A program made the translations under genes and the position numbers. The notes under the pieces are model-generated. The model was not told the origin of the DNA. It ran no database searches and saw only the letters and a list, made by a program, of their open reading frames with translations. Shown piece by piece: positions 25,753 to 30,568 of a DNA stretch of 64,000 nucleotides (the stretch's first letter is position 1; the number at the start of each line of letters is the position of its first letter). The stretch is from Phreatobacter cathodiphilus. GTDB lineage: Bacteria; Pseudomonadota; Alphaproteobacteria; Rhizobiales; Phreatobacteraceae. The stretch lies in contig NZ_CP027668.1 of NCBI RefSeq assembly GCF_003008515.1, positions 1,790,001-1,854,000 on the forward strand, read 5' to 3'.

Positions 25753-28266
25753 ATGGCGAAACGCGATTCCGGCAAGCCGAAGTCGCCGCAGGCCGCGCCC
25801 AAGGCACCCTCGCCGCGCGATAAGGCCGCTCCGGCGGCTCCGGCCGCACGGGCGGATTCGGCTCCGCGCACGGCGGCGGCGGCTGTCGCGCCCAAGGCGA
25901 AGTCGGCGGTGGCCAGGGTCGCCGCCCGGCCGGATCGGTCGAAAGCCGGCACATCCGCGGCCAATGCGCCTGTCGCAAAAACGCCTGCCGCCAAGACCCC
26001 TGCCGCCAAGACCCCTGCCGCCAAGACCCCTGCCGCCAAGACCCCTGCCGCCAAGACCCCTGCCGCCAAGACCCCTGCCAAGACGGCTGCCGCCAAGACC
26101 CCTGCCAAGACGGCTCCCGCCAAGACTCCTGCCAAGGCGGCTGCCGCAAAGACTCCCGCCAAAACCCCTGCCAAGACGGCTCCCGCCGCGACGAGGGAGC
26201 CGGCGACCCGTCCCGGGCCCGCCAAGCCCGCTTCCGCCAAGCCTGCTTCCGTCAAGCCCGCTCCCGCCAAGACGGCGCCCGTCGAGGCGACGTCACCGAA
26301 GACGGCTCCCGCGGTGAAGGCACCCGCCGCTCCCGCCGCGGCGGCACCCTTGGCCGACAGACCGGCCCCGGCCGCCGCCCCCCGCAAGCCGCTCTCGCTC
26401 GTCACCGGCGGCAAGTCCGCCGAGCCGGCGGCCGCTCCGCCACCCGCCGTGGCGCCCCAACCTGCGGCCGAGGCGGCGGGTGACGATCCCTTCCGCTTCC
26501 AGGCCCTGGACGTCGAGCGCCTGTCGTCCAACATCGCCCGCATGGTCGAACTCGGCGGCAAGGCGCTCGCCGCCTATCTGAAGCCGCGCGAGACCGGCGC
26601 CCACCCCTCCGATTCGCCGGACGGCGTCGCCGATGTCGCCAAGACCCTCGGCCATGTCGCCGAGTTCTGGCTGAAAGACCCGCAGCGGGCCATGGTGGCG
26701 CAGTCCGAGGTCGCCACGCGCTATATGGACCTGTGGGCCCAGTCGCTGAAGGCGATGGCGGGCGAACCGGCGGAACCGGTGGTCCGGCCCGACCCGCGCG
26801 ACGTCAGGTTCAAGGACCCGCAATGGGAGAAGAACCCCTTCTTCGATTTCCTGAAGCAGTTCTACCTGGTGACCACCGGGCTCGCCGAGAAATTCGTCAC
26901 GGAGGCCGAGCTCGACGAGCACCTGAAGCACAAGGCCTCGTTCTACGCCAGGCAGATCGCCAACGCCCTCTCGCCCTCAAACTTCGTCGTCACCAATCCG
27001 GAACTGCTGCGCGAGACGATCTCCTCCAATGCCGAGAACCTCGTGCGCGGCATGAAGATGTTCGCCGAGGACGTGGAGCGCGGCGGCGGCGACCTGCGCA
27101 TCCGCCAGTCCGACGACAGCCAGTTCGCGGTCGGGCGCAACCTCGCCATGACACCCGGCAAGGTGGTCTTCGAGAACGACCTGATTCAGCTCATCCAGTA
27201 CGAGCCCACCACCAAGACGGTCGGCAAGGTGCCGCTGGTCATCGTCCCGCCCTGGATCAACAAGTTCTACATCCTCGATCTCACCCAGGAGAAGAGCTTC
27301 ATCAAATGGGCGGTGGACCAGGGCCTGACGGTCTTCGTCGTCTCCTGGGTCAATCCAGACCAGCGCCACGCCAACAAGAGCTTCGACGACTACATGCTGG
27401 AGGGGCCGCTGGCCGCCTTCCGCGTCGCCGGCGAGATCACCGGCGAGGAGAAGGTCCACGCCATCGGCTACTGCGTCGGCGGCACGCTGCTGGCGGTGAC
27501 CCTCGCCTACATGGCGGCCAGGGGCATGGACACGGTGCAGACCGCCACCTTCTTCACCACCCAGGTGGACTTCACCCACGCCGGCGACCTCAAGGTCTTC
27601 GTCGACGAGGAGCAGATCCAGAGCCTCGAGAAGCGCATGGCGCAGACCGGCTATCTCGAGGGCAAGCAGATGGCCAACGCCTTCAACATGCTGCGCTCGA
27701 ACGACCTGATCTGGAGCTATTTCGTCAACAATTACATGAAGGGCAAGCAGCCCATGCCCTTCGACCTGCTCTACTGGAACGCCGATTCCCCCCGCATGCC
27801 GGCGGCGAACCATTCCTTCTACCTGCGCCACTGCTATCTGCAGAACGACCTCAGCCAGGGCCGCATGGAGGTCGCCGGGGAAAAGCTGGACCTGAAGAAG
27901 GTGAAGGTGCCCGTCTACAACCTCGCCGCGCGTGAGGACCACATCGCCCCGGCACACTCGGTCTTCCTCGGCTCGCAGAGCTTCGGCGGCCCGGTGGAAT
28001 ATGTCATGGCGGGATCGGGGCACATCGCCGGCGTCGTCAACCCGCCGGCGAAGAAGAAGTACCAGCACTGGACCGGCGGCAAGCCCGAGGGCAGCTTCGA
28101 CGACTGGGTCGCCCGCGCCGAGGAGCATCCCGGCTCCTGGTGGCCGCATTGGCGCGAATGGGTCCGCGCCCATGACGGCAAGGAGGTCGAGGCGCGCCGC
28201 ATCGGCTCCAACGCCTATCCGCCCATCGAGGACGCCCCCGGGCGCTACGTGAAAGTGAAGGACTGA
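25753..28266 (+). CDS. phaC: Class I poly(3-hydroxyalkanoate) synthase with long basic repeat N-terminal extension
   Basis: The 837-residue product polymerises hydroxyacyl-CoA on PHA granules. Residues from about 243 onward are a class I PhaC. The nucleophile is C574 in the lipase-like box GYCVGG, with D729 (AREDHIAP) and H757 ([12 protein letters not shown]) completing the triad; the D-to-H spacing equals that of the Cupriavidus enzyme. Residues 1-242 are an added Lys/Ala/Pro/Thr-rich region with six exact AAKTP repeats plus variants, resembling histone H1-like tails and the DNA-binding tail of phasin PhaF. Typical class I synthases are near 600 residues. A GGAGGG ribosome binding site precedes the ATG, and the frame is continuous. 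A thioesterase gene follows by two bases. Confidence 0.95.
25987..26076 (+). repeat. Six perfect tandem copies of a 15-base unit (GCCGCCAAGACCCCT) in phaC
   Basis: Six identical 15-base copies encode AAKTP each. They are preceded by a variant VAKTP unit (25972-25986) and followed by imperfect AKTA and AKTP units to about 26190. Because the unit is a multiple of three, slippage would change repeat number without shifting the frame, so tail length could vary between strains. Confidence 0.97.
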
Positions 28267-28735: not shown

Positions 28736-29785
28736 TTACGGGAACAGCGCGATCTGCTCCAGACCCGTCGTCTCGGGATAGCCGAGGACGAGGTTCATGT
28801 TCTGGATCGCCTGGCCCGCCGACCCCTTCACCAGGTTGTCGAGGGTCGAGATGACGATGGCCCGGCCGGGAATCCGGTCCTCGAACACGCCGATCTGCAC
28901 GTAGTTGGAGCCGCGCACGTTCTGCGTCTGCGGCACCACGCCCTTCGGCGCCACATGGACGAAGGGCTCGTCCCGGTAGGCGTCGGCGAGCGCTTTGCGC
29001 AGGTCGTCGGCGGTGGCCCCCTTCAGCCGGACATAGGACGTGCAGAGCTCGCCGCGCGCCATGGGGATGAGGTGCGGCGTGAAGTTGATGGTCACCTTTC
29101 CACCCACCGCGACGCCGATCTCCTGCTCGATCTCAGGCGCGTGGCGGTGCTTGCCGATCGAATAGGGCGAAAGCCCCTCGCCGGCTTCCGAGAACAGCGT
29201 GTTCTGCTTGAGGCCCCGGCCGGCGCCGGTCACACCCGACTTGGCGTCGACGATGATGTCCTCGGCGTGGATGAGGCCGGCCTTGGCGATCGGCACCAGC
29301 GCGAGCAGGGTCGCGGTCGGGTAGCAGCCCGGGCAGGCGACGAGGCGGGCGGCGGTGATCTCCTTCCGGTAGAACTCCGTGAGCCCATAGACCGCCTCCT
29401 TCTGCAGCTCCGGCGCCTGGTGCTCGTGGCCGTACCACTCCGCATAGGTCGCCCCGTCGCGCAGCCGGAAGTCGGCGGACATGTCGAGGATCTTGATCTT
29501 CGGGTTGGCGGCGAGCACGGCGGCCGTGATCTCCTGCGTCGTGCCGTGCGGCAGGCCGCAGAACACCGTGTCGAGACCGCTCCAGTCGACGCTCTCCCAG
29601 GCGACGAGCTTCGGCAGGTCGAGCATGAAGAAGTGCGGGAACACATCCGCCATGGCCTTGCCGGCATGGGTGTTCGCCGTCAGCGCGGTGATCTCGACAT
29701 GCGGATGGCGGGCGGCGAGGCGCACGGCGTCGGCGCCGGTGTAGCCGGAGGCTCCGAGGATCGCGATTTTGGCCTTGGTCGCCAT
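28736..29785 (-). CDS. argC: N-acetyl-gamma-glutamyl-phosphate reductase
   Basis: This 349-residue enzyme catalyses the third step of arginine synthesis. The NADP motif ILGASGYTGADAVR is at the N-terminus. VFCGLPHGTT, the catalytic Cys in VACPGCYPTATLLAL, KSGVTGAGR and the catalytic His in GKHRHAPEIEQEIG follow, with VRGSNYVQIGVFEDR near the C-terminus. Its 204-base upstream region holds a promoter, an arginine-rich leader peptide and a terminator, suggesting control by transcription attenuation. Confidence 0.97.
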   Translation of the reverse strand: MATKAKIAILGASGYTGADAVRLAARHPHVEITALTANTHAGKAMADVFPHFFMLDLPKLVAWESVDWSGLDTVFCGLPHGTTQEITAAVLAANPKIKILDMSADFRLRDGATYAEWYGHEHQAPELQKEAVYGLTEFYRKEITAARLVACPGCYPTATLLALVPIAKAGLIHAEDIIVDAKSGVTGAGRGLKQNTLFSEAGEGLSPYSIGKHRHAPEIEQEIGVAVGGKVTINFTPHLIPMARGELCTSYVRLKGATADDLRKALADAYRDEPFVHVAPKGVVPQTQNVRGSNYVQIGVFEDRIPGRAIVISTLDNLVKGSAGQAIQNMNLVLGYPETTGLEQIALFP

Positions 29786-29831
29786 GGCAGTCTCCGCAGG
29801 GTGCGAGAAGTCGGTTCAGGAATTCAGGGAC

Positions 29832-29855
29832 AAAAAAACCGCGCTGGGAGCGCGG
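29832..29855 (-). terminator. Rho-independent terminator in the argC leader (attenuator)
   Basis: On the minus strand CCGCGCT-CCC-AGCGCGG is followed by seven T (29838-29832). It lies between the leader peptide stop (29892) and the argC start (29785), so it would end transcription before argC unless an alternative pairing wins. The alternative is GCGCGGC (29889-29883), directly after the leader stop codon, with GCCGCGC (29856-29850), the 5' arm of the terminator. Confidence 0.85.
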
Positions 29856-29891
29856 CGATCGGGTCGATCATCAGGGCACACGGCCGCGCGC

Positions 29892-29942
29892 TCATCGCTG
29901 GATGAGGATACGGCGTCGGGTGCTGGTCGCGGCGGTGATCAT
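29892..29942 (-). CDS. Arginine-rich leader peptide of argC (attenuator, 16 residues)
   Basis: ATG at 29942 opens the 16-residue frame MITAATSTRRRILIQR, which stops at TGA (29894-29892). It has three consecutive Arg codons (CGA CGC CGT) and a fourth (CGA) just before the stop. No ribosome binding site is visible. The TTGACA element at 29977-29972 would place transcription start at or next to the A of this ATG, so the peptide is probably translated leaderless, as is known for Sinorhizobium meliloti trpL. Within the coding part GCCGCG (29933-29928) can pair with CGCGGC (29888-29883) after the stop, giving the 1:2, 2:3 and 3:4 pairings of a ribosome-controlled attenuator. Confidence 0.75.
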   Translation of the reverse strand: MITAATSTRRRILIQR

Positions 29943-29948
29943 GGCCGT

Positions 29949-29977
29949 TACATGCAATCGGCGGATGACGCTGTCAA
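29949..29977 (-). promoter_or_regulatory. Predicted argC leader promoter
   Basis: A perfect -35 TTGACA (29977-29972) is followed after 17 bases by a poor -10 candidate CATGTA (29954-29949). It starts 13 bases beyond the cobalamin adenosyltransferase stop. The expected start near 29942 coincides with the leader peptide ATG. Confidence 0.5.
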
Positions 29978-29989
29978 GACGAGCCCGCG

Positions 29990-30568
29990 CTACCGGTTCT
30001 TGCCCGGCACCCAGAGCACGTCCGCCCGGCCCTTGTCGTTGAGGTAGCGGGCGGCGACGAAGAGGAAGTCCGACAGCCGGTTCACATATTCGAGCGCGGG
30101 ACGCGACACCGCCTCGCCGGGACGGCGCACGAGGTCGACCATGATCCGCTCGGCGCGCCGGGCGATGGTCCGCGCCAGGTGCAGATGCGCCGAAGCGGGG
30201 CTTCCGCCGGGCAGGATGAAGCTCTTCAGGGGATCGAGCTCGGCATTGAGCTGGTCGATCTCCCGCTCGATGCGTTTCACCTGGGCTTCCACGATCCTGA
30301 GCGGCTCGTAGCCGAGATCCTCGCCGAGGTCAGGCGTCGCCAGGTCGGCGCCGAGATCGAAGAGGTCGTTCTGGATGCGCATCAGCATCGCGTCGACCAC
30401 GGGATGATCGGCGGTGGCGAGCCGGGCGATGCCGATGGCGGAATTCGCCTCGTCGATGCAGCCATAGGCCTCGACGCGCAGGTCCGACTTCAGCCGACGC
30501 GGCCCCGCCGCCAGCCCCGTCGTGCCGTCGTCGCCGGTCTTCGTGTAGATCTTGTTGAGCTTGACCAT
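29990..30568 (-). CDS. Cob(I)alamin adenosyltransferase, PduO type
   Basis: This 192-residue enzyme transfers adenosyl from ATP to cob(I)alamin. The ATP-binding N-terminus KIYTKTGDDGTTGLAAGPR, VEAYGCIDEANSAIG, FILPGGSPASAHLHLARTIARRAER and YVNRLSDFLFVAARYLN are family hallmarks. It follows the HIG1-type gene by 12 bases, with tspO further upstream on the same strand, so the three look like one transcript. No B12 riboswitch was recognised in the region. Confidence 0.93.
   Translation of the reverse strand: MVKLNKIYTKTGDDGTTGLAAGPRRLKSDLRVEAYGCIDEANSAIGIARLATADHPVVDAMLMRIQNDLFDLGADLATPDLGEDLGYEPLRIVEAQVKRIEREIDQLNAELDPLKSFILPGGSPASAHLHLARTIARRAERIMVDLVRRPGEAVSRPALEYVNRLSDFLFVAARYLNDKGRADVLWVPGKNR

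Follow-up and report, generated by a model that had tools for sequence, protein, structure and literature searches.

Among the described systems closest to the locus studied here is the trp attenuator of Sinorhizobium meliloti (trpL/rnTrpL/peTrpL). In the accessible parts of PMC7298713 and PMC10117765, it appears as an alphaproteobacterial ribosome-mediated attenuator in which the message starts at the leader ATG, and in which control codons and a terminator stand before a biosynthetic gene. The orf34-speF leader of Salmonella shares another property, as two consecutive Arg codons sense arginine there and a further Arg codon lies beside the stop (PMC6386406, available in part). Alphaproteobacterial leaders with codons matching an amino acid have also been described upstream of ilvBN in Caulobacter crescentus (PMC4117421) and, as uORFC-8-2, before cysS in Rhodobacterales (PMC8632094), both papers being cited from their accessible parts.

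Herein, we analyzed a leader upstream of argC in a 64-kb stretch of DNA, hereafter the window. Sequence comparison and RNA modelling indicate that it very probably acts as a ribosome-mediated transcription attenuator by which argC is controlled according to the supply of charged tRNA-Arg. Like the S. meliloti message, that of the leader would start at the ATG. The first-pass annotation was not aware of an arginine attenuator upstream of argC, and our literature searches, which covered mainly open-access papers, brought up no published case. Rfam yielded three matches in the window region at E values up to 5, none of which reached the gathering score, and no family reached it at 14 related loci either.

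Layout of the leader and its conservation in the genus

All elements of the locus lie on the minus strand. The −35 element TTGACA (29977-29972) is located 35 nt before the ATG (29942-29940) of the leader frame MITAATSTRRRILIQR, which has 16 codons (29892..29942) and ends at the stop codon TGA (29894-29892). The putative control codons CGA-CGC-CGT are codons 9-11 (29918-29910), and the final sense codon, CGA at codon 16 (29897-29895), falls within a hairpin over the stop and is paired in the predicted folds. The intrinsic terminator, GCCGCGCU-CCC-AGCGCGGU followed by a T run, occupies 29832..29856, with its stem at 29856-29838 and the T run extending to 29832. Downstream lies argC (28736..29785, ATG at 29785), encoding N-acetyl-gamma-glutamyl-phosphate reductase of 349 aa (NCBIfam TIGR01850, 415.6 bits against a cut-off of 233.6). 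The TTGACA, the ATG, the 16-codon frame, the Arg codons including the final CGA, and the terminator were all found where the first-pass annotation had placed them; only the distance of 47 nt that it gave between terminator and argC had to be corrected, as the T run ends 46 nt before the gene.

A strict scan of 29600-30200 returned no full sigma-70 promoter, because the presumed −10 element is weak (CATGTA, 29949..29954); this element was positioned from spacing alone and is absent from the scan. Since the usual distance from −35 to +1 would place the first nucleotide of the message at the leader AUG, we infer from the promoter spacing that MITAATSTRRRILIQR is leaderless, with transcription starting at or beside the ATG. 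Elsewhere in the window, an 837-aa frame at 25753-28266, by eye a probable polyhydroxyalkanoate synthase, has a long N-terminal extension of KTPAA-type repeats.

For the comparison within the genus, we used 12 genomes of the family, including that of the window, all of which belong to one genus; a 221-base stretch was matched in all 12. TTGACA was present in every genome, 35-37 nt upstream of the leader ATG, and the leader frame had 16 codons without a single indel. The distance from the ATG to the end of the T run was 111-113 nt, and the terminator stem and T run were preserved throughout. The codons CGA9, CGC10, CGA16, and the stop TGA were invariant, and codon 11 encoded Arg in 10 of the 12 leaders. 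Additional Arg codons occurred at position 7, 8, or 12 in seven leaders, giving four to five Arg codons among the 16 in each genome, at shifting positions. Outside the Arg residues, the peptide varied freely. Conservation of the Arg codons in relatives, to which the first-pass annotation had pointed as a check, was thus observed at codons 9, 10, and 16. A second DNA match in the genome of the window lay inside a long reading frame and was taken as chance.

CGA accounted for one of 151 Arg codons in six chosen genes of the window, compared with two of four in the leader. It occupied codons 9 and 16 in all 12 genomes, and slowing at such a rare codon may sharpen the response.

The ArgC proteins of two genomes (G005 and G011) were only 58% identical to that of the window, compared with 91-96% in the other nine relatives. 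Despite this divergence, their leader DNA was 76% and 79% identical over the matched part.

Occurrence of the leader outside the genus

To search more widely, model R1 was built from the 12 congeneric leaders, from the ATG to just beyond the T run, TTGACA not being included. Against 397 genomes of the order, R1 gave matches in 64 at an E value of 0.01, 52 of them outside the genus. We fetched 18 of the loci outside the genus. Seven were located upstream of a second argC subfamily, whose products are approximately 30% identical to the ArgC of the window, and ten had neither argC nor TTGACA and were taken as chance. The leader of G228 (L203/L127) precedes a RidA-like gene (PF01042), and there was no argC in the 3,000 bases read.

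Model R2, built from 20 leaders and also without TTGACA, was applied to 385 genomes from the class and 397 from the order. At E < 1e-10 it gave five matches in the class and 24 in the order, eight of which were not training sequences. Five of these eight (G517, G490, G488, G377, and G131) lay upstream of second-type argC. G407 had its match before an argD-type gene whose frame ends after 226 aa and scores below the curated cut-off, and the second leader of G275 stood before argD-argF, with both ArgD and ArgF passing their curated cut-offs. The match in G116 was judged to be chance. Arginine genes (argC, argD, or argD-argF) were thus found downstream of seven of the eight strong non-training matches. 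Besides this second leader, G275 has one upstream of second-type argC (the two loci being L131 and L243).

In total, 15 leaders were identified outside the genus, in other families, all with repeated Arg codons and with TTGACA 35-39 nt before the ATG. Fourteen of them precede arginine genes, namely second-type argC in 12 cases, argD in one, and argD-argF in one. With the 12 congeneric leaders included, TTGACA was present at 35-39 nt in 27 of 27; among 36 other model matches read, with partial-model matches mostly outside this number, none had TTGACA in the 50 bases upstream.

The distribution was patchy. In the order sample, second-type argC was present in 190 genomes, in nine of which our searches found the leader. 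We read 61 other upstream regions of second-type argC (the 30 best-scoring and 31 spread over genera) and found no leader; the remainder of the 190 genomes was covered only via the models. The orders of G490 (two genomes) and G407 (one genome) yielded no further leaders. Among 327 genomes sampled from the phylum, the highest-ranking match other than the window itself reached an E value of 2.7e-8, and the nine loci read there lacked TTGACA. Four weak candidates with TTG-start frames (L148, L149, L155, and L190) were rejected, and a loose DNA pattern proved too unspecific, matching 55 of 60 genomes.

Among named organisms, we tested 52 of 80 argC loci with R2, which matched all ten Bradyrhizobium loci (E values of 1.2e-7 to 0.0072), with a weak match in Rhodopseudomonas rhenobacensis (E 0.044). 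An example of these leaders is MINAATIIIARRRRILAVWAVARV. Instead of TTGACA, they have TTGACG, 36-38 nt upstream in Bradyrhizobium and 35 nt in R. rhenobacensis. They precede a PaiB-like FMN-binding gene (L003-L011, L017, and L031; PF04299 in the two tested), which adjoins argC in L004, L005, L006, L009, and L031 and ends approximately 1 kb before argC in L003, L007, L008, L011, and L017; in L010 its frame breaks early. In five Bradyrhizobium loci, a further gene separates the PaiB-like gene from argC. A crude scan of the 80 loci had missed these Bradyrhizobium leaders because it covered only 330 bases before argC. Model R3, run over all 80, recovered seven of the Bradyrhizobium and R. rhenobacensis leaders at an E value of 0.01 and no others. 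Since the T run is weak in several Bradyrhizobium leaders, termination is less sure there. The ArgC of the window was 84% identical to that of Bradyrhizobium jicamae, compared with 58% for the congeneric G011 and G005, which keep the same leader; argC thus seems to have been replaced beneath a retained leader (loci concerned in this comparison: L093, L094, and L003).

Instead of arginine supply, the leader might sense slow translation in general, or a drug under which ribosomes stall on Arg-rich nascent peptides. Arg-Leu-Arg leaders have been linked to antibiotic-induced stalling (accessible part of PMC8632094), and the position of the G228 leader before a RidA-like gene also favors a non-arginine signal. 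However, arginine genes lie downstream of 14 of the 15 outside leaders and of all 12 congeneric ones. Moreover, Arg codons that shift in position while their count stays at four to five are expected of codon sensing rather than of a fixed stalling peptide. We therefore consider a signal other than arginine improbable.

It should also be considered whether the hairpin merely terminates the upstream gene, in which case the Arg frame would be a by-product of GC content and argC would have its own promoter past the terminator. The upstream neighbor, a cobalamin adenosyltransferase gene (29990..30568, minus strand; NCBIfam TIGR00636), shares its orientation with the leader, and its end is 12 bases upstream of TTGACA. 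Furthermore, the window holds 235 frames that start with ATG and span 14-25 codons, and 41 of them contained RR and at least four Arg residues; as such short Arg-rich frames are common in this GC-rich DNA, a high Arg content by itself is weak evidence. TTGACA at 33-40 nt upstream was found for one of the 235 frames, which was the leader MITAATSTRRRILIQR. The terminator was the sole one within 29600-30200 (one found, against a mean of 0.3 in shuffles). Against this explanation, six of the 12 congeneric genomes have, by eye, a different upstream sequence in place of the adenosyltransferase gene and still keep leader and terminator with argC, indicating that the leader goes with argC. A by-product of GC content also fits poorly with TTGACA, frame length, and Arg codons conserved in all 12 genomes, and with the occurrence of the leader-terminator unit before argD and argD-argF elsewhere. 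This explanation is very unlikely, and the adenosyltransferase gene is not regarded as part of the switch.

The comparison therefore supports an attenuator with conserved promoter element, frame, Arg codons, stop, antiterminator segment, and terminator, as well as its recurrence before arginine genes. The proposal of the first-pass annotation, that argC is preceded by an attenuator with Arg codons in a leaderless leader, thus gained comparative support from all 12 congeneric genomes and from this recurrence.

ArgR (PF02863) was detected in none of six congeneric genomes, while eight of 14 control genomes were positive. This agrees with a survey of 196 proteobacterial genomes, according to which many groups of Gammaproteobacteria conserve ArgR whereas other classes lack it (PMC5343134). 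It is quite possible, if still somewhat doubtful, that the element is a portable leaderless arginine attenuator that recurs in Alphaproteobacteria instead of ArgR, standing before argC of two subfamilies, argD, argD-argF, and PaiB-like/argC. Such an element would be kept while the gene below diverges or is replaced, and its RNA may act in trans.

Predicted pairings and the proposed switch

The whole leader folded better than 195 of 200 shuffles (z −2.31). Both the leader of the window and the alignment of 12 gave a full fold consisting of a hairpin over codons 9-16 and the stop, a small hairpin GAUCG/CGAUC (29857..29869), and the terminator. According to the predicted folds, the first of these (the 1:2 hairpin, 29883..29914) is likely formed by CUCAUC (29906-29901) and GAUGAG (29896-29891) over codons 13-16 and the stop, with GCCGU (29914-29910) and GCGGC (29887-29883) pairing outside. 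It replaces the pairing of GCCGCG (29933-29928) with CGCGGC proposed by the first-pass annotation, which was present in only one of the 12 genomes. The outermost and second-innermost parts of the 1:2 hairpin were disrupted in one to two of the 12, and in the small hairpin one of the five pairs was altered on both sides in one genome.

The fragment 29895-29850 approximates the RNA left free by a ribosome stalled at the Arg codons, with the terminator still incomplete. It folded as GCGCGGC (segment 2, 29889-29883) paired with GCCGCGC (segment 3, 29856-29850, which is also the 5′ arm of the terminator) around the small hairpin, and a duplex of segment 2 with the terminator arm was formed in all 12 congeneric genomes. 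Both this pairing and the terminator stem had been foreseen in the first-pass annotation. On its own, the antiterminator did not fold better than shuffled sequences (z −0.63), and once the 3′ arm was present, in the full-length RNA, the terminator was favored over the antiterminator. Thus, the switch would be kinetic.

Ensemble folds were calculated for all 27 leaders. Occupancy of the terminator arm was higher for the stalled than for the released state in 24 of them, but in 21 of the 27 it did not fall below one half when the released state was modelled. The pairing of segment 2 with the terminator arm was better than the shuffle mean in 22 of the 27, with p ≤ 0.05 in four.

MAFFT and RNAalifold gave practically no consensus structure for the 15 divergent antiterminators, and we therefore compared duplexes formed with own and swapped partners. 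This test included 13 of the 15 divergent leaders (near copies dropped: G300 of G365, and G131 of G062) and 10 of the 12 congeneric ones (G007 and G005 dropped as near copies). In one setting, the region around the stop of the 13 divergent leaders gave −11.8 kcal/mol with its own partner ahead of the terminator and −9.7 kcal/mol with swapped partners (P 0.0007). Across eight window settings, the P values were 0.12, 0.086, 0.0054, 0.0007, 0.0010, 0.0017, 0.065, and <0.0001; that is, five were below 0.01 and three lay between 0.065 and 0.12, in statistics that ignore relatedness. When the strongest leader was removed, P was 0.0032 to 0.0063 in three settings. There was no antiterminator covariation among the 10 congeneric leaders (P 0.55), and the 1:2 hairpin showed none in either the divergent set (P 0.43) or the genus (P 0.85). 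Of the compensatory stem changes that the first-pass annotation had suggested looking for, the comparison therefore supports those of the antiterminator in divergent relatives, but not changes within the genus or in the 1:2 hairpin.

On the attenuation reading, transcription would begin at the leader ATG or next to it, and the 16 codons would be translated from a leaderless message. When charged tRNA-Arg is short, the ribosome would stall at CGA-CGC-CGU and cover the 5′ half of the 1:2 hairpin. GCGCGGC would then be free to pair with GCCGCGC, so that no terminator forms and argC is transcribed. When arginine is plentiful, the ribosome would reach UGA and cover GCGCGGC; the terminator would form, and a leader RNA of approximately 111 nt would be released. 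That the element chiefly yields a trans-acting small RNA or peptide, replacing or beside cis control, is highly improbable: its layout is that of rnTrpL, whose start is the trpL ATG (accessible part of PMC7298713), but the peptide outside the Arg residues is not conserved in the genus, the link to arginine genes is explained by cis control, and a trans product would in any case be compatible with attenuation.

Comparison with known systems

The trp attenuator of S. meliloti differs from the argC leader in its Trp codons and in its target, trpE; start, attenuation, and trans action were measured there, whereas start and attenuation are predicted from sequence for the argC leader. The orf34-speF system of Salmonella concerns an ornithine decarboxylase, depends on Rho, RNase G, and translation, and has no intrinsic terminator (PMC6386406); its frame begins at +32 with a Shine-Dalgarno sequence, unlike a leaderless frame. 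The ilvBN leader and uORFC-8-2 of cysS, as described in the accessible parts of their papers, concern other amino acids and other genes.

If confirmed, the argC leader would add arginine to the amino acids sensed via attenuation at an intrinsic terminator. It would also offer a concrete and testable answer to how arginine synthesis is controlled in part of the Alphaproteobacteria. A small RNA of approximately 111 nt is predicted in the species of the window, and Bradyrhizobium is an accessible place for a test.

A short upstream frame is also linked to arginine genes in the fungal arginine attenuator peptide. However, that system belongs to eukaryotes, and it is translation that the nascent peptide affects there, together with arginine. 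Attenuation, the mechanism proposed for the argC leader, is a known one; what would be new is arginine as the amino acid sensed, in bacteria whose arginine control is little known.
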